Shown piece by piece: positions 16,787 through 64,000 of a stretch of DNA of 64,000 nucleotides. Position numbers and translations under genes: made by a program. The notes beneath the pieces are model-generated. The model was not told the origin of the DNA, did no database searches, and worked only from the letters and a program-made list of their open reading frames with translations. The stretch comes from Sphingomonas hankookensis (lineage in GTDB: Bacteria > Pseudomonadota > Alphaproteobacteria > Sphingomonadales > Sphingomonadaceae), in assembly GCF_028551275.1 (NCBI RefSeq), contig NZ_CP117027.1:49978-113977 (forward strand). Direction: 5' to 3'. The number at the start of each line of letters is the position of its first letter. Position 1 is the stretch's first letter.

Positions 16787-17236
16787 ATGCTGCTGTGGGA
16801 AGCCTATACCGCGCAAGACGTACCGCCGTCCGACGACCGAGATCGTACGCGGATCGAGGCGGCGATCGGCGGCCGGTTGCCCGATGCCTATTGGGCGCTG
16901 GTCGTGGCGCATCAGGGCAATATTCCCGAGGAAAGCGAGGGCGATCCGCCGCCGATCGGCGTGCTGTTGCTGGCCAACGCCCCCGACAGCGTGGAGAAGG
17001 ACGAGCGAAGCTATTGTATCGAATGGTGCTGGGAGGCGATGCGCGACCGCTATCCCGCCGGCCTGCTGCCCTTTTCCGACGATACCGGCGGCAATGTCTG
17101 GGCGTTCGATTTCCGCCGCGATCCCGAACGCCCGGCGGTGGTGTTCATCGATCATGAGATCGAGGGCGAGGATGGCATCACGCCCGTCGCGCCCGACTTC
17201 GCCGCCTATTGGGCGCTGGTGACGGCCGTGGCATGA
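16787..17236 (+). CDS. SMI1/KNR4 (SUKH) immunity-like protein
   Basis: A 149-residue SUKH-superfamily protein. Visible family signatures are IEAAIGGRLPDAYWALVVAH near the N-terminus and LLPFSDDTGGNVWAFDFRRD, followed by PAVVFIDHEIEG. SUKH proteins typically neutralise the C-terminal domains of polymorphic toxins. It opens a run of four short genes that overlap head to tail and lie upstream of the PAAR-RHS effector. It is therefore a likely immunity or orphan-immunity protein, but its cognate toxin is unknown. Confidence 0.85.
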   Translation: MLLWEAYTAQDVPPSDDRDRTRIEAAIGGRLPDAYWALVVAHQGNIPEESEGDPPPIGVLLLANAPDSVEKDERSYCIEWCWEAMRDRYPAGLLPFSDDTGGNVWAFDFRRDPERPAVVFIDHEIEGEDGITPVAPDFAAYWALVTAVA

Positions 17237-19242: not shown

Positions 19243-19385
19243 CGGGGAACTCCGGCTGCGTGCTTACCCCCTCCGCATGGCATGGCCACAACGCGGACGG
19301 CGGTGTGGAGGTGCCCGCCGGGCTTGCATCGTTTTTCGGTCCGTTGCGTACTAACCGCCGTCCGACCAACGCAAGGAGGAACGTG

Positions 19386-20477
19386 ATGAGCCTGTTGAAG
19401 CGGTTGCTGGGTGGTGGGAATGCGCCCGAGGCGCCGGCGAGCGCGCCGGTGCTGGTCAACGCCTATGCGACGCTTGTCGACCTGCCGCCGCTCGACCTGC
19501 CGCACCGCCTGCTGGGCGCAAGGGACCGGTCCGATCCGGAACTGGCGGAGCATCTGCGGGGCTTTGTCGGCTATGTGATGAGTCGCGGCGACGGACAGAT
19601 GACCGCGACGCGCTATTATGTCTGGCGCCATTTGCAGCGCGTGCGCCATCATGTCAGCTTCGAGATCGACGAGGCCCATCTGGGCTGGATCGAGCCTTGG
19701 GCGAAGGCGGCCAACGCGCTGTTGTTCCTGCCCGACGGATCGGTGCGCGCGCCGGACGGGGCGATCGTGATCGATGCGCAGGGCGAGGGCGATCCGGACG
19801 CTGCGATCCCCTTTCCGGACGATGCGGTAGCGCGCCGCCCGCGGACCCGGGCGGCGCTGGCCGATGCGGTGCTGCAACCGCCCGCCGGCATGGCCCCGGC
19901 GCTGGGCGCGGGCGAACTGGTGCTGCGCGCGCCGGAGGAGGTGCTGCACCGTGCGCTGGCGCTGCTCTACCTCGCCGCCCGCGCCCATGCCCGCGCCACC
20001 GGGCTGCCGGCGATCCCGGCGGGGCAGGAGGAGCACAACCCGCTCGGCGCCGCCGCGCTCACGCCGCAGGAACGGGCGTTCCTCGCGGACGAGGGTGCCG
20101 ACGCCGATGCCGCGGCGGGGCTGACCTGGCGCTACGAGGCGGCGAACAGCCTGCTCTGGGCGCTTGGTGTCGCCGGGGCGGAGATCGACGACAGTAGCGC
20201 GATGGCCGATGTCGACCGGCTGTGGGCCTCGGTCGCGCCACTGACACGGGGGGCGGGCGCGCAGGCGGTGCGGCTGCGCCCGGCGAGCGAAATCCTCGAT
20301 GCGCTCGACCGGACATGGCTCGAACACTGGATCGTGCGACAGGCGCGCCAGAAGGAGGTGGAACCGGGCCACATCAACGGCGACGTGGTGGTGGAACGGC
20401 ACGTCGCGCTCAACTGGCTGACGAATTTCCAGAACGAGCCCGAGGTCGCGTGGGACGATACGGATACGCCGACGTGA
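19386..20477 (+). CDS. DUF4272 domain protein of the toxin island
   Basis: A 363-residue protein. The second half fits DUF4272: LTPQERAFLADEG, WRYEAANSLLWALGVAGAEI, RPASEILDALDRTW, then DVVVERHVALNWLTNF and a WDDTDTPT ending. The ATG at 19386 follows GGAGGAAC. DUF4272 proteins often sit beside type VI or RHS effectors, but their role is unknown. It lies 120 bases upstream of the PAAR gene, in the same direction, suggesting one transcriptional unit with the effector. Confidence 0.85.
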   Translation: MSLLKRLLGGGNAPEAPASAPVLVNAYATLVDLPPLDLPHRLLGARDRSDPELAEHLRGFVGYVMSRGDGQMTATRYYVWRHLQRVRHHVSFEIDEAHLGWIEPWAKAANALLFLPDGSVRAPDGAIVIDAQGEGDPDAAIPFPDDAVARRPRTRAALADAVLQPPAGMAPALGAGELVLRAPEEVLHRALALLYLAARAHARATGLPAIPAGQEEHNPLGAAALTPQERAFLADEGADADAAAGLTWRYEAANSLLWALGVAGAEIDDSSAMADVDRLWASVAPLTRGAGAQAVRLRPASEILDALDRTWLEHWIVRQARQKEVEPGHINGDVVVERHVALNWLTNFQNEPEVAWDDTDTPT

Positions 20478-20598: not shown

Positions 20599-20937
20599 GT
20601 GCTGCAGGCGGCGAGGCTAACCGATCTGGAGAAATGCCCCGGCGGCGGCGGGCCGATCGTCACGGGCGCGGCAACCGTCTTCATCGAAGGCCGGCAGGCC
20701 GCGGTGCAGGGGAGCAAGATCGATTGTTCGTCCGGTCCGACCGTGATCGAGAGCGGGTCGCCGACCGTCCGGATCGAGGGTGAACCGGCCGCCCGCCGCA
20801 CCGACACGACCTGTCACAAGGGGATCATCGACACCGGTGCCGCCACCGTCTTCATCGGCAATGGCGGGGGCGGGAGCGGCGGCGCGGGGACCATGGGCCG
20901 CGCCTATCAGAGCGGAGCGCCGTTCGCGCGTGCCTGA
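20599..20937 (+). CDS. PAAR-domain tip protein
   Basis: A 112-residue PAAR protein beginning with GTG 20599 after a GGAGGA ribosome binding site. The typical repeats are seen: ARLTDLEKCPGGGGPIVTGA, VQGSKIDCSSGPTVIESG, ARRTDTTCHKGIIDTGAATV. PAAR proteins cap the VgrG spike of type VI secretion systems and recruit effectors. The stop overlaps the GTG start of the DUF4123-RHS gene. No VgrG or core type VI genes are in the window, so the delivery machine must be encoded elsewhere. Confidence 0.92.
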   Translation: MLQAARLTDLEKCPGGGGPIVTGAATVFIEGRQAAVQGSKIDCSSGPTVIESGSPTVRIEGEPAARRTDTTCHKGIIDTGAATVFIGNGGGGSGGAGTMGRAYQSGAPFARA

Positions 20938-23900
20938 ACCCGCAGGACAGGCGGCGGTGCAGCTGGGCCGGATCGACGCATCCTATCTGGATACGGCCGC
21001 AGAACGTGGGCAGCTCTATGTCCTGGTCGACGGGTGCGCGGTGCCGGGATTGCCGGCGCTGGGCCGGGCGGCCGGCGCGACCTGCCTCTATCGTGGGCAG
21101 GCGGAGCGGACCCATGGCGCGCAGGCGCCGTGGCTGTTCCCGGTCGGGCCGGGCGGGCGCGCGACCTTCGTCGAACGGCTCGGGACGGGCGACTGGGGCT
21201 GCTTCCTCGTCTCCGCCGCGCCCCCGCCACGGTTGGTGCGGCATCTGCGCTCGCTGCTCGAAGTCCGCTCGCCGGCGGGGGAGAAGTGGCTGTTCCGCTT
21301 CTGGGACCCGCGCGTCCTGCCGACGTTCCTGCGCGCATCGGGACCGGTCGAGCTGAACGCGTTCTTCGGGCCGATCGAAAGTTTCGCGGTCACGGGGGGC
21401 GAGGGCGATGCCTTTGCCGCATGGCGCGCACCCGAGATCGTCGCCCCGCCGCCGCGTCGTGCGGTGGGCGAAAGGCTGGCGATCACCCCGGCGCAGCTGG
21501 CGGCGCTGCGTGGCAACGCGGTTGCCGATCGGCTCGCCCGGACCTTTTCGGCGCCCTATCAATCGCGGGTCACCCCGGCCCGCGACGCGGTGCTGGTGCG
21601 AGCGCCCGATGGCGGCGTCACCCGGTTCGGACTGGGCAATGGCGGTCTGATCGACGGCGTCACCAGTCCGTTGGGCCGGCACTGGGCGATCGACGCGCAT
21701 GAGGACGGGCGCATGGCGCGGATGGTCACGCCATCCGGATCGGCGCTGACCATTGCCTATGACCCCGCCGGCCGGATTGCCGGCGCGGCACGGGACGGCG
21801 TGGAGCGGTTTCGCGCGACCCATGACCGCGACGGGCGGCTGACCCGCGTCGATTTCCCCGACGGCACCGCGGCGGAGGTCGATCATGCCTGGCAGGGCCG
21901 CGCCGCGCTGGGCGATCCGGACGGCATGGTGATCCGAGCATGGCGCGACCGGATCGGCCGGGTCGAACGCTTCGCCCAGGACGGAGCGCAACTGACGGCG
22001 GCACAGGACGGTGCCGGCAACGTCACCCGGTTCGACCGCGATGCGGCGGGACGGACCTGCGCCACCCGCTTCGCCGATGGCGGGGTGGAACGTTACGACT
22101 ATGACCCTGCCGGCCATGTGGCGCGCATCGTCCGGGCGAGTGGCGAACCGCTCGACGTCGCATGCGATGACGCGGGGCATCCGCGCCGCATCACCGCCGC
22201 CGATGGCGCTGTCGAGGAATATGAACGTGACGATGCCGGCCGCCTGATCGCCGCGCACAATGGAGAGATCGAACTCCGCTGGACCTATGACGATGCCGGC
22301 CGCCTGATCGAGGAGCGGCAGGGCGACGCGGTGGTGCGGCACCTGCATGACGACAGCGGCCCGGTCGGCATCGTCTATCCCGACGGCACGATGCTGCGCT
22401 GGCAGCGCGATGCCGATGGGCGGATCATTGCCTTCACCGACTGGAATGGCGGTATCCACCGGGTCGACTATGCCGCGCGCGACGGCGGATGGCGGATGAC
22501 CGGCCCCGATGGGCTGAGCGTCGCGACGTTGCAGGACCCGGCCGGCTTTCCTGCAACGGTGACGGCGACGCTGGGCGACGACCCGCTGTGGCGGGTGGAC
22601 TATGCTCATGATGCGGAGGACCGCCTGACCGGGCGCCGCGACAGCCGGTTGGGTGAAATCCGGTTCGACTATGATGCCGAGGGACAGGTGCTGGGCTTCG
22701 CGCACAGCCACGGGCGCGGCGAACGTTATGCCTATGACGGGGCCGGCAACCGGGTGCAGGGGCCGGCCGGCGCCGCGACGTTCGATCCGTGCAATCGTAT
22801 CGTCACCGACGGCGCCACGCGGTTCGCGCACGATGCGCGCGGCGCGATGACGATGCGTGCCGGGCCGGACGGGGAGTGGCGCTATCGCCATGACGGGTTC
22901 GGGCGACTGGTCGAAGCACGCGATGCGCAGGGACGTACGCTGGCCTTCGGCTATGATCCGCTGGGGCGGCGGATCTGGAAACGCGCCACCAGCATGGAAG
23001 GGATGACGCTCACCCGTTTCCACTATGCCGGCGAGCAGGTGATCGCCGAGACGGTCGAGCGGGACGGCGTGGGGGCGGTGATGCGCGCCTATGGCTATGC
23101 GCCGCTGTCGTGGACGCCGGTCTTCCTGCGCGATGGCGGCGTGGTCCATCGCTATCATTGCGATCCACTCGGCGCGCCCGTCCGGCTGACCGCGCCGGGC
23201 GGCCGGATCGTGTGGGAAGCGGATGGCGATCCGTTCGGGCGGGCGCGGGTCCATGTGGCGGAGGTCGCCCAGCCCATCCGCCTGCCGGGCCACTATGCCG
23301 ATGACGAGTTTGGCTTCGCGCTGCATTACAACCGGCACCGTTTCTATGATCCGGCGACCGGCCGCTATGTCAGCCCCGATCCGATCGGCGTGGCCGGCGG
23401 GCTGAACCTCTACCAATATGTCGGCAACGACCCGGTCAACCGCGCCGACCCGCTGGGTCTGTGGTGGAAATCGGCGCTGAAGGTCGTGGCGACGGTGGCG
23501 GTGGCGGTGGCCGCTGCGGCAGTGGTGGTCGCGCTGGCGCCGGTGACGGTGCCGGCCGCGCTCGTGGTGATCGGCGCGGGCGCGGCGGCGGGTGCCGCCG
23601 GCATGATGATGAACGAGGCGCTGAACCAGGAAGAGTTCTGCCTTTCGTGCATCCTGAAGGCCGGGCTGGTCGGTGCGGTGGCGGGTGCGGTGGCGGCGGT
23701 TCCGTTCGCTTTTGCGCCGGCAGCGCTGGGTGTGGCGAGCTTTGCCGGGCTGGGTGCGGGCAGCGGGTTCCTCGGGTACGGAACCGAAGTGCTGCTGGGC
23801 GCGCGCGAATGGAACTGGGGCGAAGCCGCGACTGCCGTAGGGCTGGGCGCGGTGACGGCGGGTGCGGGGCGCTATATTGCCGGGCGCTATCCGCGCACGC

Positions 23901-24208
23901 CTGCCAAGCCGACTGAAGCATATAATCGGCAGAAACATTACGGCCGAACGCCAACCGCCGCGGATCGCAAAGCCATTGGCGCTGGCAAAAACCAGGTGGC
24001 GGATCATGATCCGCCGCTGGTACAGCGCTACTACGAAGGCGACCCCGCGCGCGGTGAGAAGCCGGGATGGCAGATGACGCCCGAAGAAAGGCGTGCCAGC
24101 GCGAACGATCGTAGTAGAATGAGTGTGCAGTCCAAGGCCGATTCCGACACGCAGGGCGGCAAAATGTCGGCTTATTCTCGTAAAAAGCGAAGGGAACACG
24201 GACTTTGA
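20930..24208 (+). CDS. DUF4123-RHS fusion polymorphic toxin
   Basis: A 1092-residue protein starting at GTG 20930. Residues about 15-165 are a DUF4123 domain, seen in GQLYVLVDGCAVPGLPAL, RHLRSLLEV and FRFWDPRVLPTFL. DUF4123 is normally a separate type VI adaptor chaperone. Residues about 220-835 are YD/RHS repeats. The cage ends at the hallmark near 820-844 (GLNLYQYVGNDPVN, then DPLGL). Hydrophobic segments (about 850-960) precede a 90-residue basic C-terminus with ADHDPPLVQRYYEGD, resembling an HNH/EndoVII-like nuclease toxin. The immunity candidate overlaps its stop codon. Fusion of adaptor and cage in one chain is unusual. Confidence 0.93.
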   Translation: MPEPAGQAAVQLGRIDASYLDTAAERGQLYVLVDGCAVPGLPALGRAAGATCLYRGQAERTHGAQAPWLFPVGPGGRATFVERLGTGDWGCFLVSAAPPPRLVRHLRSLLEVRSPAGEKWLFRFWDPRVLPTFLRASGPVELNAFFGPIESFAVTGGEGDAFAAWRAPEIVAPPPRRAVGERLAITPAQLAALRGNAVADRLARTFSAPYQSRVTPARDAVLVRAPDGGVTRFGLGNGGLIDGVTSPLGRHWAIDAHEDGRMARMVTPSGSALTIAYDPAGRIAGAARDGVERFRATHDRDGRLTRVDFPDGTAAEVDHAWQGRAALGDPDGMVIRAWRDRIGRVERFAQDGAQLTAAQDGAGNVTRFDRDAAGRTCATRFADGGVERYDYDPAGHVARIVRASGEPLDVACDDAGHPRRITAADGAVEEYERDDAGRLIAAHNGEIELRWTYDDAGRLIEERQGDAVVRHLHDDSGPVGIVYPDGTMLRWQRDADGRIIAFTDWNGGIHRVDYAARDGGWRMTGPDGLSVATLQDPAGFPATVTATLGDDPLWRVDYAHDAEDRLTGRRDSRLGEIRFDYDAEGQVLGFAHSHGRGERYAYDGAGNRVQGPAGAATFDPCNRIVTDGATRFAHDARGAMTMRAGPDGEWRYRHDGFGRLVEARDAQGRTLAFGYDPLGRRIWKRATSMEGMTLTRFHYAGEQVIAETVERDGVGAVMRAYGYAPLSWTPVFLRDGGVVHRYHCDPLGAPVRLTAPGGRIVWEADGDPFGRARVHVAEVAQPIRLPGHYADDEFGFALHYNRHRFYDPATGRYVSPDPIGVAGGLNLYQYVGNDPVNRADPLGLWWKSALKVVATVAVAVAAAAVVVALAPVTVPAALVVIGAGAAAGAAGMMMNEALNQEEFCLSCILKAGLVGAVAGAVAAVPFAFAPAALGVASFAGLGAGSGFLGYGTEVLLGAREWNWGEAATAVGLGAVTAGAGRYIAGRYPRTPAKPTEAYNRQKHYGRTPTAADRKAIGAGKNQVADHDPPLVQRYYEGDPARGEKPGWQMTPEERRASANDRSRMSVQSKADSDTQGGKMSAYSRKKRREHGL

Positions 24209-24756
24209 CCTGGAACGCATCGATCCGCAGCCATTATGAAAAATCATGGGGTAAGGCCGAAGGTGTCAGCCCTTTCGACAAGGGACCCGTGGCCGAGCTT
24301 CCGGCGGACTTCGACGTGCTGATCTTTCCGCCCCGCAGCGAGCGCGCCATGTGGACCTATGCGACGGTCGGCATGGCGCAGCCGGGCGACGAGGATCCGA
24401 TCGAACTGCACCTCTTCTCGCCCGATCGTTCGGAAGCGATCGCCGAAATCCTGTATGCCGTCGCGCATTATCACCGGACCGGCATGCGCCTGGGCCTGGG
24501 CGACAGCGTCAATTTCGGCCGTCCGTGGCTGCCGGGGGCGACGTGCGATCATGGGCTGATCTCGTTGCCCTATCTCGACGGGCCGGAACTGGAGGTCGGG
24601 ACGATCGGCGGCGAGGGGGTCCGCTTCTACTGGCTGGTGCCGATCACGGCGGCGGAGAAGGCGTACAAGGCGCGGCACGGGCTGGAGGCGCTGGAGACGC
24701 GGTTCGAGGAAGGGGCGCTGGATTATTGCAACCCGGCGCGGCGATCGATGGTATAG
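24205..24756 (+). CDS. SUFU-family immunity protein candidate
   Basis: A 183-residue suppressor-of-fused-like protein. It carries MWTYATVGMAQPGDEDPIEL, LHLFSPDRSEAIAEI, a GDSVNFGRPWLPG loop, FYWLVPITAAEKAYKA and a final cysteine/arginine region. The start is TTG 24205 overlapping the toxin stop (TTGA). SUFU domains are common immunity proteins for nuclease polymorphic toxins. Its position directly after the RHS toxin tip makes it the most likely cognate immunity protein. Confidence 0.85.
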   Translation: MTWNASIRSHYEKSWGKAEGVSPFDKGPVAELPADFDVLIFPPRSERAMWTYATVGMAQPGDEDPIELHLFSPDRSEAIAEILYAVAHYHRTGMRLGLGDSVNFGRPWLPGATCDHGLISLPYLDGPELEVGTIGGEGVRFYWLVPITAAEKAYKARHGLEALETRFEEGALDYCNPARRSMV

Positions 24757-24783: not shown

Positions 24784-25077
24784 ATGGGATCGGTGACCGA
24801 CTGGCCGTTCGCCGACCCGCCCGATGTCGCCGTGTTCACGACGCGGGCGATCGTCGAGGACGGGGCGTGGATCGCGTCCGTATCGCATGACGCGGAGGAT
24901 GGTGCGTGGCAGTTCCACGATGCCGGACCCGGATCGGCGGACATGGCGGAGGCGCGGATCGTGTCGTTGCGTAGCATGGTGGAGCGCGACCCGACGGTAG
25001 GCGAAATCCTCGATCTGCCGCCGGGCGGCCGGGCATCGCGGACGGCAGCCGGACGTCCATGGGACCGAAATCGATGA
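24784..25077 (+). CDS. Small protein with HDxxDGxWQF motif
   Basis: A 97-residue protein: WPFADPPDVAVFTTRAIVED, ASVSHDAEDGAWQFHDAGP, VSLRSMVERDPTVGEILDLP and PPGGRASR. This pattern recurs in small proteins beside RHS genes and is a plausible immunity or accessory protein, though no named family is certain. Codons 33-86 (nt 24880-25040) are duplicated 1.3 kb downstream, after the glycohydrolase gene. Confidence 0.75.
   Translation: MGSVTDWPFADPPDVAVFTTRAIVEDGAWIASVSHDAEDGAWQFHDAGPGSADMAEARIVSLRSMVERDPTVGEILDLPPGGRASRTAAGRPWDRNR
24880..25040 (+). repeat. Left copy of a 161-bp direct duplication
   Basis: Bases 24880-25040 are nearly identical to 26211-26372, with a handful of substitutions and a one-base length difference (GCGGAGGAT versus GCGGAAGGA). 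The copies flank the ADP-ribosylglycohydrolase gene. Homologous recombination between them would delete that gene precisely. Confidence 0.9.
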
Positions 25078-25081
25078 GTCG

Positions 25082-26176
25082 GTGATCGACCTTCGCGCCC
25101 CCGACGCGGATATCGCCGACTATGTATTCGCCCGCTATCGACGGCTGTCGCCAGAGGCGTCGCCCGGATTGCGGGGGCGCATGACAGGGGATGCGTCTGT
25201 ACGTGCCGTTGCTGGCGACAGGGAAGACGCGCAGCCCTGGCTCACCACCCCGCCCGATGCGCTTTCGCCAGCGGATGTCCATGACCGGGCGCAAGGCGCG
25301 CTGCTCGGCCTCGCGATCGGCGATGCGGTCGGCACCACGTTGGAATTCCAACCACGCGACGCGCACCATGTCGACGACATGATCGGTGGCGGCCCATTCC
25401 GACTGGAGGCGGGGCAATGGACCGACGACACCAGCATGGCACTGTGCCTCGCCGATGCGCTGCTGATCGATCGGGGGTATCAGCCGCGGACTTTCGCTCG
25501 CTTCCTCGTCCGCTGGTATCGCGAGGGGTATAACGCATCGAACGGGCGCTGTTTCGACATCGGCAACGCGACCCGTATCGCGATCGAAGGGCATGAAGCC
25601 GAGGACGGCCGGTGGCAGGGCAATGCCAGCGATCAAACCGCTGGTAATGGGTCGCTGGTACGCGTCGCTCCGGTGGCGATCGCCGCGCGTGGTGCGCTGG
25701 ATGTAACCTGGCGGCTGTCAGGTGGGCAGAGCCGGGCGACCCATGCCGCGCTGGACGCGATCTCCGCCTGCCAGCTGTTCGGCATGTTGCTGAATCACGC
25801 ACTACGCGGTGCATCGCGCGAGGCGGTCCTCTCCCCCCATATCGCGACGCTCAGCCCGCGTATCCAGATCATCAATGCGGGCGAATACAAGCATAAGACG
25901 CGCGACCAGATTCGGTCGTCGGGCTATGTGGTCGATACGCTGGAGGCGGCGTTATGGTCCGTCTGGCACAGCAGGACGTTCGAGGAAGCGGTGTTGCTGG
26001 CCGCCAATCTGGGCGACGATGCGGACAGCGTAGCGGCGGTGGCCGGGCAACTGGCGGGTGCGCTCTATGGGCAGCGCGGTATTCCCGACCATTGGCTTGG
26101 GCGGGTAGCCTTTGGGCCGAAGATTGCGCGGTGTGCGACGCAGCTGCTGGCGCTGGCGCTGGGACGAGCTGCGTAG
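25082..26176 (+). CDS. ADP-ribosylglycohydrolase family protein
   Basis: A 364-residue protein with the DraG/ARH fold from about residue 65. It has DRAQGALLGLAIGDAVGTTL, the metal-binding GQWTDDTSMALCLADALL and, near the C-terminus, AANLGDDADSVAAVAGQLAG. These provide the two-metal site for hydrolysis of ADP-ribose from modified arginine or other residues. The first 60 residues are an unfamiliar extension. GTG 25082 is the first in-frame start. In a polymorphic-toxin island, such an enzyme could reverse a toxin-caused ADP-ribosylation, which is inference. It is framed by the 161-bp duplication. Confidence 0.9.
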   Translation: MIDLRAPDADIADYVFARYRRLSPEASPGLRGRMTGDASVRAVAGDREDAQPWLTTPPDALSPADVHDRAQGALLGLAIGDAVGTTLEFQPRDAHHVDDMIGGGPFRLEAGQWTDDTSMALCLADALLIDRGYQPRTFARFLVRWYREGYNASNGRCFDIGNATRIAIEGHEAEDGRWQGNASDQTAGNGSLVRVAPVAIAARGALDVTWRLSGGQSRATHAALDAISACQLFGMLLNHALRGASREAVLSPHIATLSPRIQIINAGEYKHKTRDQIRSSGYVVDTLEAALWSVWHSRTFEEAVLLAANLGDDADSVAAVAGQLAGALYGQRGIPDHWLGRVAFGPKIARCATQLLALALGRAA

Positions 26177-26208
26177 AATCCGGTAGATGTCAGCGGGGTC
26201 AGGATCGC

Positions 26209-26412
26209 ATGTATCGCATGACGCGGAAGGACGGGGCGTGGCAGTTCCACGATGCCGGACCCGGATCGGCGGACATGGCGGAGGCACGGGTCGTGTCGTT
26301 GCGTAGCATGGTGGAGCGCGACCCGACGGTAGGCGAAATCCTCGATCTGCCGCCGGGCGGCCGGGCATCGCGCGGCGCCCCCGGCGGTCGATGGGTATGC
26401 GAGCGGTGCTGA
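26209..26412 (+). pseudogene. Truncated duplicate of the HDxxDGxWQF gene
   Basis: From ATG 26209 the frame reads a 67-residue peptide whose core, KDGAWQFHDAGP through DLPPGGRASR, repeats codons 40-86 of the gene at 24784. The first 32 codons of the original are absent and the tail differs. A one-base insertion relative to the first copy changes the frame before the shared block, so the original start could not be used. It is either a decaying duplicate or a new short gene; no separate function is evident. Confidence 0.7.
26211..26372 (+). repeat. Right copy of the 161-bp direct duplication
   Basis: Matches 24880-25040 almost base for base. See the left copy for the flanked gene and the indel. 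The copy ends within GCATCGCG, after which the sequences diverge completely. Confidence 0.9.
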
Positions 26413-59191: not shown

Positions 59192-59499
59192 GGCAATGAC
59201 CCTTCGTTGCGTGCCGGCTATCGCCGTCACAGAAGCGGCCTGACGGCCGCAGGCTTCCGAGAGAAGCCAAGCCGATCCGGCGGTGTGTACCTGTCAGCGT
59301 GACGCCCGTTGAAAGGGCAGGGTGGGGAGATACCCCGAACCGATCGTTGGTTTCGCCGGTGTGTGCGATCACGCCGGACCGTAGAGGCCATCGAACTCGC
59401 GTTCGGCATCGAAGCAGATGTTCGCGACGTTGATCGGGTGGGCGTCATCGTTGGCAGATGCGCCTGGACATCGCCGCAATGGGTGGTCCTAAACCGTGA
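59192..59499. other. Noncoding gap after the IS5 element
   Basis: About 308 bases without a credible gene. Short frames exist on both strands but show no family features. It is the continuation of the beta-helix gene's original 3' flank and the border to the mobilisation module. Confidence 0.5.
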
Positions 59500-59748
59500 T
59501 TACGAGCAGTTTTGAGACAGAAGCTCGCCGAGCAAAGCCACCGGGTCGACCCCTATCGCCACAGCGACCGCGACATATTCATCCACGCTCAACTGGCGCT
59601 CGCCGGTTTCGTAGCGAGATACATAGGCCTGCTGCCATCCGAGCCGCTTCGCGAGGTCGACCTGACGAAGCCTGGCATCCCGCCGTGCCACGGTCAGCGC
59701 AGCGACGATGCGGGCGTGCAGATCGGATGGGACAGGGGAGGCGGGCAC
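59500..59748 (-). CDS. XRE-family transcriptional regulator
   Basis: An 82-residue Cro/CI-type protein from GTG 59748: DLHARIVAALTVARRDARLR, QVDLAKRLGWQQAYVSRYET and GERQLSVDEYVAVAVAIGVD form the helix-turn-helix. It is divergent from the gene at 59824, with a perfect palindrome between them. It probably represses one or both promoters and belongs to the mobilisation module. Confidence 0.85.
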   Translation of the reverse strand: MPASPVPSDLHARIVAALTVARRDARLRQVDLAKRLGWQQAYVSRYETGERQLSVDEYVAVAVAIGVDPVALLGELLSQNCS

Positions 59749-59773
59749 CCCGAAGCATCTAGACCGGCTTGAG

Positions 59774-59796
59774 CGATATACGGAAAGCGTATATCG
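59774..59796. promoter_or_regulatory. Operator-like palindrome between divergent module genes
   Basis: Perfect 8-bp arms CGATATAC (59774-59781) and GTATATCG (59789-59796) separated by seven bases, located 26 bases upstream of the XRE gene start and 28 bases upstream of the 93-residue protein gene. The form is that of an XRE/Cro operator; function is inferred. Confidence 0.6.
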
Positions 59797-59823
59797 TCCA
59801 GGCTTCCGATCGGGAGTGCTGAC

Positions 59824-60105
59824 ATGAGACTGTTCGAGCGCATCGCCACCTGGTTCGACGACTGGACGCTCCCGGGCCACTCGGGAATTGGCAGCGACGG
59901 AACGGATATCAATCCGACAACCGGATTGCCGACGATCGCTGGAGCGGGGACCCCCGACGTCGCCGGCAATCCCTATGGTTCTATCAGTTCGCACGATTAC
60001 GAATCCGATTGGCAACGCCACGATCGCTGGGACAGCAGTGCTCATGACCATTTCCAGCATCACGACAGCTGGTCGGCGAGCAGCCATGATCCCTGGCGTG
60101 ACTGA
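59824..60105 (+). CDS. Small hypothetical protein of the mobilisation module
   Basis: A 93-residue protein: MRLFERIATWFDDWTLPGHS, GIGSDGTDINPTTGLPTIAG and a His/Ser/Asp-rich end (HDRWDSSAHDHFQHHDSW). Such proteins occur next to conjugation genes in sphingomonad plasmids, as far as memory allows. The function is unknown. It overlaps the next gene by 20 bases. Confidence 0.7.
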   Translation: MRLFERIATWFDDWTLPGHSGIGSDGTDINPTTGLPTIAGAGTPDVAGNPYGSISSHDYESDWQRHDRWDSSAHDHFQHHDSWSASSHDPWRD

Positions 60106-60691
60106 GCGCGTCCCGGTGGCCGACCGGCTGATCGCACGATGGGAGGTGAGCCAGCTGAACGTCGTCCCTTATGCGATCAGCGTCATGGTCTTCCTGCCGA
60201 TGCTGATCGTGACGATCGGTATCGCCAAGGCGATCGGCGCCAGACCGGTCGTCATGGGACGAGGCATGCTCGTCATCTGGGTGGCCCTGTTCGCAACCGA
60301 GATGGCGCGAGGGATCTGGACGCTGCGGCACCGTTACGCCTCGCCGCGCTGGCTGCGCGCAGTTCATGCTGTAGTCGGTAACGACCTTGCCGTTCATGCG
60401 CTCGCCGAGTTGATGCGCCAGCATCGGTACGAACCCGATTATGTCCTTCTGAGATCCGACATGACCAGCGCGGTCCAGCAGGAATACGCCCGGCGCAAGG
60501 ACGCGGCCCGACGTGCCGAGGGGATCCGGGTGATGGAGGAACCGGATACTGCCCCGGGTCCGGAGCCGGAAGGCAACGATCCCCGGATCGGCGAAGATCG
60601 ACGCGCCCGGGCACGCGAGCGTCGCGCCGCTAGGAAGATACTGGCAGCGGCAGCGCCAGTGACAGGCGATATGTCCTGCGGCTCACCCTAA
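60086..60691 (+). CDS. Membrane protein of the mobilisation module
   Basis: A 201-residue protein from ATG 60086. Two hydrophobic helices (VVPYAISVMVFLPMLIVTIG and GMLVIWVALFATEMARGIW) are followed by a basic, acidic-mixed tail (GEDRRARARERRAARKILAA). It likely anchors in the inner membrane. No known family. Confidence 0.68.
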   Translation: MIPGVTERVPVADRLIARWEVSQLNVVPYAISVMVFLPMLIVTIGIAKAIGARPVVMGRGMLVIWVALFATEMARGIWTLRHRYASPRWLRAVHAVVGNDLAVHALAELMRQHRYEPDYVLLRSDMTSAVQQEYARRKDAARRAEGIRVMEEPDTAPGPEPEGNDPRIGEDRRARARERRAARKILAAAAPVTGDMSCGSP

Positions 60692-61157
60692 ACCGGCTGC
60701 TGCACCGTCGAGAAGACGGTCCGGGTAGAATGACAGTTCGCTTGCTGGCCGGCTGACACGCCGGCCCGGGTGCCCCGCCAGAAGCCGGAATGAATGCCGG
60801 AGCACCACGGCATCGATACGGCAGCATCCGGATCATGCAGGGAAGGAGCACACACCACGCTATGGATAGCGGCCGTGTTTCGAGCGTAAAGCCGTGGTCT
60901 ATCATTGCTGTAGCAGGATATCGGCTGTGCTGCGGGTTCCGCAAAAGCTGCCTCGTGACGTGCTACAAGGGCGCTACAGCGCTACGAAGGCCGTGATCCG
61001 CCGGGCGGCGCAGCGACATGAGGGTCGCAAGCAAGCGACCCGTGCACTACTTCCTCTGGGAGTAAGGGCTCATCTCTCGTCGGGCGTCATGGGACACGAT
61101 CAGTGCCCCAGCAGCGGCCGATGTCGAACCCGGACGCTCGCGCCTGCTTCCGTGCGG
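60692..61157. other. Noncoding gap inside the mobilisation module
   Basis: About 466 bases without a supported gene. A perfect 7-bp hairpin GGCCGGC/GCCGGCC (60747-60766) follows the membrane protein and may be a terminator. A tract around 60960-61000 has repeated GCTACA/CGCTAC blocks of unknown purpose; an origin of transfer or attachment site could lie here but none can be named. Confidence 0.5.
60747..60766. terminator. Hairpin after the membrane protein gene
   Basis: GGCCGGC and GCCGGCC around TGACAC, 55 bases after the stop codon at 60691. No T-tract. A terminator is plausible. Confidence 0.45.
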
Positions 61158-61424
61158 TCAGGACGTGCCGGACGGCCGTGCGCGGAAGCGGCGCGGGTCG
61201 AAGAACCAGATCAGCATGACCGCGCCGGTGACAGCTGCGGCGATCCAGCAGGCAGCCGCAAGGGCAGGGGCATAGCCCAGCAGACGGATCGCCAGACCTG
61301 CCAGCAGCAGGCCTGTGCACAGCGCCGCCAGTCGGCGCACGACCGGCCAGTTGCGTCGCTTGAACCCAACGCGCCGGGTATCTGCCATCCAGGCGGCCAG
61401 TTGTTCCTTCGAAGATCCGCTCAT
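61158..61424 (-). CDS. Small two-helix membrane protein
   Basis: An 88-residue protein from ATG 61424, with GGGGGA eight bases upstream, overlapping the XRE gene end. Two transmembrane helices (LAALCTGLLLAGLAIRLLGY and ALAAACWIAAAVTGAVMLIW) follow a charged N-terminus (KEQLAAWMADTRRVGFKRRN). Likely an accessory of the mobilisation module. Confidence 0.68.
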   Translation of the reverse strand: MSGSSKEQLAAWMADTRRVGFKRRNWPVVRRLAALCTGLLLAGLAIRLLGYAPALAAACWIAAAVTGAVMLIWFFDPRRFRARPSGTS

Positions 61425-61426
61425 CC

Positions 61427-61903
61427 TCAATCCCCCAGCGACAAGGCGAGCAGCGTACCGCGCAGCTGCTTGCGGTTGGCGGCGCCCGCGTCCGCGCCTC
61501 CGTCGTATATCACGCGCGCGAGCGCTTGGCTGCGTTCGTCAGGCAGTTCCAGCCCGACGTCCTTGCAGACGGCGTCCACGTCCGCGCGCAGGCGGTCGAG
61601 ACGGTCCCAGTCGACCGGCCCGTAGTAGCTCCGGGGCACGGTGTCCTCGCCCAGGATCACCCATTCGGGATCGACATCGTAATCGCGCCGGAGCTTCGCC
61701 ATCAGGGCGACCGGCGGCTCGGCCCCGCCCAGTTCCCAGCTGACCAGTGCGCGCTTCGAATAGCCCAGCGCCTTCGCGAACGCTTCCTGTCCCAACCCGG
61801 TCCTGAGCCGTACCGCCTTGATCCGCTCGCCGATGGTGGATGCGCCGCTCACGTCGTCATGGCCTATTGCTTTATCCTGCTCATTATGGCGCAATCGTGC
61901 CAC
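61427..61903 (-). CDS. XRE-family transcriptional regulator
   Basis: A protein of up to 158 residues with a helix-turn-helix (IGERIKAVRLRTGLGQEAFA, then KALGYSKRALVSWELGGAEP) and a C-terminal extension (DPEWVILGEDTVPRSYYGPV). GTG 61903 or the GTG at 61852 may be the start. It is divergent from the relaxosome-accessory gene, which it may control. Confidence 0.82.
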   Translation of the reverse strand: MARLRHNEQDKAIGHDDVSGASTIGERIKAVRLRTGLGQEAFAKALGYSKRALVSWELGGAEPPVALMAKLRRDYDVDPEWVILGEDTVPRSYYGPVDWDRLDRLRADVDAVCKDVGLELPDERSQALARVIYDGGADAGAANRKQLRGTLLALSLGD

Positions 61904-61968
61904 TATGCTATCATGACATGGGAGCGGTGCCGGCGACCAGCATTCCGCCGGACAGGGGCAGGGAATTC

Positions 61969-62766
61969 ATGAGCGGTCAGGTCAATGTACGGCTCGGGGA
62001 CGGCGACGATGCGGACCTCACCCGTTGCGCGGCCGAGCGCGGCGTCGAGCGCGCGACCCTGGCCAAATCGTTCGTTCGGGAATGTCTCGATGCGTGGCGG
62101 GAGGGGCGGGCCGTCTTCGACCGGCCCGAGCAACTGGGCCCCGGTGACGTCGTCGCCTTCGGCGCCAGGCTGGACAAGGCGGTCATGGAGATCGACCGCA
62201 TCGCGCAGGCTTGGGCAGCGCATGAGAGCGACATGCACAGGCTGGAGCGCGAGGATCAGCTGGCGCTGACGCGGGCCCGGACCGAGTTCATCAAGGGCAT
62301 GCCGGAGCGCATCACCGCCAGCTTCAATCCGATCAGGGCGGAGATGCGGCTGCTTGCCGAACGGATCGACAGGCAGCCCCGTCTGGATGCCATCGACGAA
62401 CGGCAGCGCGACCACACCGAGGCGTTGCGGGAGAACACCGCCGCCATCAGGAGCCTCGAGCAGCAGCCGCGGACGAAGGTCAGCTACACCGTCTGGGATA
62501 GGGACTGGTCGGGTCGCAAGGTCGGTGCGGCGCTGTCGGTCGTCTGGTTGCTCTGCGTCGGCAGCTATTTCTTCGCGGCGATGGCGCTGCCGCCGTCGTG
62601 GTTCGCGGTCCGCTCGGCCAATTTCCTGCTGGGCGGCGGGGATCAGGCGGTCTGCGCGCTGGTGAATTACCGGCTCGCGACCGACAGCTGCCGGACGCAG
62701 TTCGAGGGCAAGGCAGGCAAGGTTGTGGTGCGGGCGAGGCCCGGCACGTCGCAGGGCCGACAATGA
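61969..62766 (+). CDS. Relaxosome-accessory-like protein with coiled coil and membrane helix
   Basis: A 265-residue protein from ATG 61969. The N-terminus (MSGQVNVRLGDGDDADLTRC, AAERGVERATLAKSFVRECL) suggests a ribbon-helix-helix. A long coiled coil follows (about 60-160), then a membrane helix (AALSVVWLLCVGSYFFAAMA). It overlaps the relaxase by four bases. The arrangement resembles MobB/MobC-type helpers that load relaxase at oriT; exact family uncertain. Confidence 0.75.
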   Translation: MSGQVNVRLGDGDDADLTRCAAERGVERATLAKSFVRECLDAWREGRAVFDRPEQLGPGDVVAFGARLDKAVMEIDRIAQAWAAHESDMHRLEREDQLALTRARTEFIKGMPERITASFNPIRAEMRLLAERIDRQPRLDAIDERQRDHTEALRENTAAIRSLEQQPRTKVSYTVWDRDWSGRKVGAALSVVWLLCVGSYFFAAMALPPSWFAVRSANFLLGGGDQAVCALVNYRLATDSCRTQFEGKAGKVVVRARPGTSQGRQ

Positions 62767-64000
62767 TCTCGGTCGCTGCCGTCGGTTCGGCCTCCGACGC
62801 AGCCGCCTATTACGCCCGGGACAATTATTACACCGCCGATCAGGCAGAAGGCGCCAGTGCCTGGGCAGGCGAGGGGGCGGCCGAGCTGGGCCTGTCCGGG
62901 CCGGTTGATGCCAAGCGGTTTGAACAGGTGCTTGCCGGCGAACTACCCAACGGCACCGTGCTGGACGCCAAACGGGGTGAGCACCGGGCGGGCTGGGACG
63001 TTACCATGTCCGTGCCCAAATCGGTGTCGATCCTGGCGCTGGTAGGCGGTGACGCTCGGTTGGTGACGGCGGTGCGGGAGGCGGCTGCCGCGACCCTTGC
63101 CTGGACGGAGCGCAACATCGCGGAAGGGCGGGTCTGGAACGGCAGGGGACAGGCGCCCGAGACGACCGGTCGGTTCGTCGCCGCGACCTTCCTTCACGAC
63201 GTGAACCGCAGCGGCGAGCCGCAGCTACACGTCCACAACGTCATCGCCAACGCGACCCGCACCGCCGACGGCAAGTGGCGGGCGCTGCACGCGGACCAGC
63301 TATACGAGCGCCAGCATGTCATGGATGCGGTGTTTCTGTCTGCGCTCCGTAGCCGTGTCGAGACGCTCGGCTTCGCCACCATCCCCCGGCACGACGGCCG
63401 CAACGGCGCCTTCGAGATCGCCGGCGTGTCGCGCGATGTGGTGGAAGCATTCTCCGGCCGGTCGGCCGAGATCGATGCGTACATCAAGGCGCGCGGATTG
63501 GAGAACACCCCGCAGACGCGCGAATATGCGGCGCTGGCGACCCGCGATCCCAAGACTCCCGACCTCGCGTCGGAGCAGCGCGCGGAAGGGTGGCGGCGGT
63601 TGGCCGCGGAGAAGGGGCTGGATCCGGCAGCGTTGGTGAAGGGTGCGCTGGCGGAGGCGGGGCGGGGGCATGACGTGTGGACGCGCGCAGTGCGGGGCGT
63701 GCGCGGGATAGGCGAGCGCGGTCTTGCTATCGCCGGCCGCATGGGGTTGACCCCGCGCGACGGCGACCCGCTGGTGCCTGAGCGACTGGGACGACTGGAG
63801 CCGCGCGCCTATGCCGCGGCGCAGGCGGTCGCATCGGCGGTGCGGGATCTAGGCGAGCGGGAGGCGGCGTTCGACCGGCTCGAGCTGATCTGCGAGAGCC
63901 TGTCGCGCGGCGGACCGGTGACGGTCGCCGATGTCGAAGCGCGACTGGCGCTACTGGAGGCGAAAGGCCTGTTGCTCGGCGACGACGATCGCATGGTGAC
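62763..64000 (+). CDS. Conjugative relaxase, MobF/TrwC-TraA type (3' end missing)
   Basis: An open frame from ATG 62763 to the window edge. Active-site tyrosine pairs are Tyr16/Tyr17 and Tyr22/Tyr23 in YYARDNYYT. The metal triad is His145, His156 and His158 in FLHDVNRSGEPQLHVHN, with the same spacing as TrwC (His150/161/163). WDVTMSVPKSVSILAL is the family-typical start of the domain. The protein nicks the origin of transfer and pilots DNA. The helicase domain should follow outside the window. It shows the region belongs to a transmissible element. Confidence 0.93.
   Translation, partial: MISVAAVGSASDAAAYYARDNYYTADQAEGASAWAGEGAAELGLSGPVDAKRFEQVLAGELPNGTVLDAKRGEHRAGWDVTMSVPKSVSILALVGGDARLVTAVREAAAATLAWTERNIAEGRVWNGRGQAPETTGRFVAATFLHDVNRSGEPQLHVHNVIANATRTADGKWRALHADQLYERQHVMDAVFLSALRSRVETLGFATIPRHDGRNGAFEIAGVSRDVVEAFSGRSAEIDAYIKARGLENTPQTREYAALATRDPKTPDLASEQRAEGWRRLAAEKGLDPAALVKGALAEAGRGHDVWTRAVRGVRGIGERGLAIAGRMGLTPRDGDPLVPERLGRLEPRAYAAAQAVASAVRDLGEREAAFDRLELICESLSRGGPVTVADVEARLALLEAKGLLLGDDDRMV

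Follow-up and report, generated by a model that had tools for sequence, protein, structure and literature searches.

Our analysis of a 64,000-nucleotide (nt) stretch of the Sphingomonas hankookensis genome, hereafter the window, revealed a PAAR spike-tip gene of the type VI secretion system (T6SS) that overlaps a gene for a large effector, in which a DUF4123 adaptor domain and an RHS shell are joined in one chain. The PAAR gene (20599..20937, plus strand) encodes 112 amino acids (aa) with a match to PF05488 (E 1.4e-16, 60.9 bits, cut-off 27), in agreement with the PAAR repeats claimed by an earlier note on this DNA. The protein shows two half-motifs followed by a C-terminal tail ending in ..GAPFARA; a PA-IIL lectin match (E 0.17) was judged to be due to chance. 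The DUF4123-RHS effector (20930..24208, plus strand) has 1092 aa when read from GTG 20930, the most probable start, and its frame then shares 8 nt with the end of the PAAR gene (GTGCCTGA). The program-listed open reading frame (ORF) begins at 20780 and has 1142 aa, but this start is mechanical and longer than the likely reading. It was set aside in favour of 20930, near which homologues begin and which fits the PAAR-effector junctions of 8/8 distinct fused genomes; in the window, the ATG at 20861 is in the same frame and could also serve as the start. The overlap described in the earlier note holds, while the start itself moves from 20780 to 20930. All effector residues below are counted from GTG 20930 unless the ORF at 20780 is named. 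PAAR lies immediately upstream of the fusion in all eight distinct fused genomes, with a start candidate of the fusion frame -28 to +32 nt from the PAAR stop in each (the junction table has 12 rows, four of them duplicates).

The DUF4123 (Tap/TEC adaptor) domain covers residues 29-143 (21014..21358, plus strand, E 1.2e-25), which correspond to residues 79-193 of the 1142-aa ORF, and scores 90.5 bits against a cut-off of 25.8. The FRFWDPRVLP signature by which the domain had been recognised falls within this match. The RHS/YD-repeat shell follows at residues about 206-840 (21545..23449, plus strand), with matches to RHS repeats (E 1e-35), RHS protein (8.7e-09) and Rhs_assc_core (7e-25); YD repeats and a DUF4123 N-terminus of an RHS protein, both read from the letters before, thus stand confirmed in a single 1092-aa frame. 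A Tcp10_C match in the RHS part (0.004) is under its cut-off and was judged to be due to chance. In a fold comparison with Tap3 the model of the DUF4123 domain has the Tap fold, with the match running through model residue 231 and residue 241 of the 290-residue Tap3 chain. This match comes from the fold comparison alone; Tap3 is absent from the 50 Foldseek rows displayed, and a sequence search of the DUF4123 profile against solved structures returned no adaptor, only unrelated weak matches with E 0.068 or worse. In the model one helix (187-205) forms a short linker from the adaptor domain to the first shell strand, and since shell strands begin at residue 211, little of a C-terminal adaptor lobe would be expected to remain. 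A profile scan gave no PAAR or prePAAR match within the effector, and hydrophobicity scanning, by a Kyte-Doolittle average and not a membrane predictor, gave no N-terminal hydrophobic segment. The PAAR domain in the chain and the N-terminal membrane segments that mark prePAAR class I (Eag-dependent) effectors thus appear to be absent. DUF4123 (Tap/TEC) adaptors are separate proteins; here DUF4123 is fused in the effector frame. Their genes are expected next to vgrG, whereas here the neighbour is PAAR and the sole VgrG found is on another contig.

Protein searches scored the 7985 and 7991 candidates with most words in common with an N-terminal and a C-terminal query, respectively. Residues 1-300 retrieved 29 proteins, of which the best 20 are all annotated as DUF4123 plus RHS and are 44-95% identical in this part; organism names on the relatives include Caulobacter, Sphingomonas and Novosphingobium. 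The C-terminal query added P0030, P0031, P0045 and P0046, all with DUF4123. P0031, a relative by its tip, is named after a Pyrinomonadaceae assembly, which may be its true host or a binning error. Within a set of 25 DUF4123-RHS proteins that includes the window's own, D817 and D840 are invariant (25/25). These residues and the DPLGL motif, whose last residue is 844 and which had been noted as a boundary before, form a region (23378..23461, plus strand) that was aligned to RhsP and RhsA, and we infer that the aspartate pair and DPxGL mark a predicted C-terminal self-cleavage site. After this site lies a conserved hydrophobic Gly/Ala-rich stretch (residues 845-975; 23462..23854, plus strand), for which the confidence of the structure model is <50. 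In 25/25 proteins the sequence at DPLGL or shortly past it is strongly hydrophobic (peak 2.35-3.11 on the Kyte-Doolittle scale), and C904 and C907 within the stretch are invariant. In the same scan P0015 shows a marginal N-terminal segment (1.65). The post-cleavage stretch may act in crossing the prey membrane. A variable toxin tip closes the chain at residues about 995-1092 (23912..24205, plus strand). Its structure model is confident (pLDDT 93.8), and the tip is probably an HNH/beta-beta-alpha-metal nuclease; the related tip of P0001 scores under the cut-off for PF14410.

Identities of the DUF4123 domain and of the shell co-vary closely among the 25 proteins (r 0.93, with 0/2000 permutations as high), the post-cleavage stretch tracks less (r 0.53), and the tip barely does (r 0.26, 2/2000 permutations). 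P0001, for example, is 94% identical to the window's protein in DUF4123 and 96% in the shell, with 31% in the tip. Of the other tips, that of P0007 matches a Colicin-DNase/WHH family, that of P0009 an ADP-ribosyltransferase family and that of P0019 an SsdA deaminase family. The pattern is that of a polymorphic toxin, in which an old and fixed adaptor-shell fusion would carry exchangeable tips. The tip of P0030 is 81% identical to the window's in a tip-slice alignment and 49% in a full-length alignment in which tips are poorly aligned, and because the two alignments disagree this protein was not used for tip exchange. DUF6531 is listed in 0/25 DUF4123-RHS proteins and was present in 3/3 PAAR-RHS proteins scanned.

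The fusion was also found elsewhere. It occurs in eight distinct genomes, two of which bear one species name, and is thus no assembly accident; it is rare but real. A profile scan of contigs gave five fused loci, four of them being the same records as genomes recovered in the other searches and so counted once. Across the order, 11/396 genomes have a DUF4123 match and 3/396 have it in a frame of >1000 aa. Within the genus the N-terminal profile was found in 15/295 genomes (six in frames of >1000 aa and nine in shorter ones) and within the class in 2/385, namely the window's own and one with a 469-aa frame; in these class and genus searches at most 8 and 10 candidates, respectively, were scored for the genomes listed. 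All eight fused genomes have a sheath gene, which in six lies 6.6-12.7 kb from the fusion on the same contig. In the window's genome, sheath gene and fusion are on different contigs; the distances measured do not include the Caulobacter record. In six other genomes of the order, PAAR is followed by DUF4123 in a short frame of its own (176-224 aa), and a TssK (PF05936) gene lies downstream in 6/6. The order PAAR then DUF4123 is therefore common to split and fused loci, both in T6SS clusters. No RHS-core match was found in the split PAAR-DUF4123 loci (0/7; L026, L027, L028, L030, L031, L033, L034). In the first six of these, PAAR is directly preceded by a large gene with a CHAT domain (6/6), and L034 shows PAAR then DUF4123 in a genome (G196) without a TssC/VipB match. 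In a plasmid collection of 72,556 records no place covers at least 80% of the effector. Among the plasmid matches listed three reached before residue 200. Two matches were examined as further fusions and turned out to be prePAAR-PAAR-RHS proteins without DUF4123; the match H6 is outside these two.

The genome (3.95 Mb, four contigs) encodes T6SS core genes. Profile searches found one TssC/VipB and one VgrG, and ten frames scanned in the T6SS region include VgrG, TssB, Hcp, TssF, a ClpV-type ATPase and ImpA-type, FHA and OmpA-type proteins, in an inventory that did not extend to TssJ, K, L and M. The VgrG was located by PF05954, while PF13296, a domain of some VgrG proteins, matched nothing in this genome. 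Genome-wide, PF13503 detects one DUF4123 match and PF05488 one PAAR gene, both in the window, which lies on contig C3 (113,977 bases), apart from the T6SS contig.

Taken together, these observations are best explained by a self-loading T6SS effector with the DUF4123 adaptor covalently built in, a reading to which we give a probability of roughly 0.7. Of the earlier interpretation to this effect, the fusion, the coupling to PAAR and the presence of a T6SS in the genome were all found, and the loading step itself stays conditional. PAAR and effector, whose genes overlap, would be made together, and the N-terminal adaptor domain would attach the effector to the PAAR/VgrG tip, with PAAR and its tail as the probable main contact. 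The RHS shell would enclose the tip, and its own aspartates, present in the sequence, would cut at DPLGL. The spike would be fired by the T6SS encoded on the chromosome, after which the freed C-terminal piece (hydrophobic stretch and tip) may enter the prey, the tip acting as a nuclease, and the SUFU-domain product of the following gene may protect the producer. Since the genome has a single DUF4123 match and adaptor and shell co-vary, a second adaptor is likely not needed.

A genome of the same species (G821) bears on the docking partner. Over the stretches compared its T6SS region is 99.97-99.995% identical, and its VgrG equals that of the window's genome in 691/691 residues. G821 has no match to the DUF4123-family profile. 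Its only PF05488 match (residues 216-283) belongs to a 1539-aa frame that also has DUF6531 and RHS repeats, in which the hydrophobic segment is N-terminal (153-204) and the tip is a DNA/RNA non-specific endonuclease; an Imm-NTF2 immunity gene follows. Since one VgrG would serve a PAAR-RHS effector in G821 and PAAR plus DUF4123-RHS here, the comparison suggests that specificity resides in PAAR. PF or PY occurs in the tail of 17/17 aligned PAARs from fused and split loci, which suggests that the P-F/P-Y tail is a putative docking peptide. Extending this, the proteins might form a PAAR-anchored class in which the adaptor binds the PAAR tail and is itself injected, while the C-terminal fragment carries its own hydrophobic, CxxC-bearing translocation module; this fuller scheme is tentative, and we consider it doubtful in its entirety.

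Several points weigh against a self-loading effector docked mainly on PAAR. Published DUF4123 adaptors dock on VgrG (PMC13133936, PMC12909789, in the accessible parts of these papers), so that docking on PAAR would deviate from this pattern. Conservation of the PAAR tail extends to loci where DUF4123 is a separate protein, which makes the tail a DUF4123-PAAR feature and not one specific to the fusion, and in G842, one of the fused genomes, a second PAAR is encoded elsewhere. An N-terminal loop of Tap3 makes over half of the effector contacts (PMC12909789, available portion), and a short C-terminal lobe therefore need not mean that the fusion replaced effector binding. As cassette and T6SS lie on separate contigs, the pairing with that machine is drawn from relatives, and the gene counts come from single models (PF05488, PF05954, PF13503, PF05943), which divergent copies could escape. 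A segment of at least 1.6 after DPxGL is also carried by 10/22 RHS homologues without DUF4123 (three of the 22, in which no DPxGL was found, are counted as lacking it), and fold searches with the tip model gave no significant match.

The strongest competitor holds that the domain docks on VgrG in the usual DUF4123 manner and that PAAR is a mere neighbour. Known adaptors bind the C-terminus of VgrG by their N-terminal lobe (PMC13133936, PMC12909789, as far as the available text goes), and in the fused loci L012 and L029 a VgrG gene precedes PAAR by about 1.5-1.6 kb. However, the identical VgrG is found in G821, a genome without a DUF4123-profile match, and the VgrG end is by eye a Gly/Pro-rich tail with no obvious helix-turn-helix. 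It is PAAR and not VgrG that recurs beside DUF4123 in fused and split loci alike, and no VgrG match was found in the stretches around the fusion of five other fused genomes. We regard docking on VgrG as rather unlikely, although it deserves to be taken seriously.

Less probable still is that the DUF4123 domain no longer loads anything and has become a plug or fold-keeper for a small RHS shell, some other part doing the loading. The N-terminal domains of TseI and Tse15 are proposed as internal chaperones (PMC7170923, PMC11461821, in the parts available), and here DUF4123 evolves along with the shell, to which it appears to be linked by little more than the helix 187-205. The lack of listed DUF6531 in all 25 proteins would also fit, as DUF4123 may occupy the place of that N-terminal part. 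Against a plug, the domain still scores as DUF4123 with 90.5 bits, has kept the Tap fold and adjoins PAAR in 8/8 genomes. An inactive or orphan module, a spare toxin cassette of a plasmid-like contig unused by the chromosomal T6SS, would fit the separate contig with its plasmid-like end and a short RHS remnant, but is very improbable given open frames, intact cleavage residues and the fact that the cassette holds the only PF05488-detected PAAR gene of a genome with a T6SS cluster.

With respect to neighbouring genes, a candidate immunity gene with a SUFU domain (24205..24756, plus strand, PF05076 E 3.3e-18) follows the effector, and its TTG start candidate overlaps the effector stop. In the plasmid collection a single weak match was found for SUFU beside similar tips. 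Within small genes downstream of the effector lies a 204-nt direct repeat (24861-25063 and 26194-26395, 90% identical) that looks like a duplicated gene fragment of the immunity region. Also near the effector is an ADP-ribosylglycohydrolase gene (25082-26176, PF03747 E 4.8e-66), which may be the orphan immunity gene of an earlier tip, because some relatives bear ADP-ribosyltransferase tips. Upstream of PAAR we found a SUKH-family gene (16787-17236) and a DUF4272 gene (19290-20477), the latter with a weak N-terminal DUF4123 score (18.6 bits, under the cut-off of 25.8). Over a MobF relaxase, positions 59488-64000 match two Sphingomonas paucimobilis plasmids with 83-84% identity, which makes C3 a plasmid-like contig. 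The RHS C-terminal remnant on the same contig (L037, C3:37448-38590, minus strand) is 42% identical, in an alignment of 276 columns, to the G821 RHS effector. Under the tentative PAAR-anchored scheme, the joint transfer of PAAR, adaptor and toxin as one cassette would let a plasmid give a new weapon to a chromosomal T6SS and VgrG that stay the same.

The way in which a DUF4123 adaptor fixes its effector to the spike is just beginning to be resolved; the Tap3-Tke5 structure is called the first atomic-level view (PMC12909789, in the part available). A natural single chain fixes the geometry of adaptor and effector and would allow a direct test of whether the adaptor domain touches PAAR or VgrG, and the same-species pair with identical VgrG and different PAAR-effector cassettes is a natural experiment on PAAR specificity. 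New here is an Rhs effector with a built-in adaptor. The earlier suggestion that the architecture is undescribed holds in part: such proteins are already named DUF4123 domain-containing or RHS in public records, and no description of an N-terminal DUF4123-RHS fusion was found in the portions read from an open-access paper library, a scope that leaves most subscription papers outside.

Among known systems, a survey of effector fusions treats DUF4123 as a single-protein adaptor and describes such adaptors as not secreted (PMC10673891, in its available parts), while one secretome table lists such a protein. In agrobacteria DUF4123, DUF2169 and RHS genes are separate (PMC8546570, likewise in part). 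Tap3, Tap6 and Tla1, as described in the accessible text, resemble the window's DUF4123 in domain and fold but are separate two-lobed proteins, and a role in effector binding has been proposed for the C-terminal lobe of Tap6 and Tla1 (PMC13133936, PMC12909789). Specialised T6SS effectors also have DUF4123 fused, but as a C-terminal domain, whereas the window's is N-terminal (PMC11148199, available portion). PAAR-RHS effectors of the prePAAR/Eag type, and that of G821, are likewise PAAR-linked Rhs toxins of the T6SS; they carry PAAR and DUF6531 in the chain, in contrast to the separate PAAR gene of the window and its hydrophobic stretch after the cleavage site. Tse15 of Acinetobacter baumannii is an Rhs effector whose N-terminal domain is also proposed as an internal chaperone, but this clade domain is a 12-helix bundle, and DUF4123 is mentioned 0 times in the available part of the paper (PMC11461821). 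The nearest described effector is TseI of Aeromonas dhakensis, which, according to the accessible text (PMC7170923), is likewise an Rhs effector, has the nuclease tip and aspartyl C-terminal self-cleavage that are predicted for the window's protein, and depends on a DUF4123 protein, which attaches to its Rhs core, but differs in that this chaperone, TecI, has a gene of its own, which shares an operon with VgrG1.

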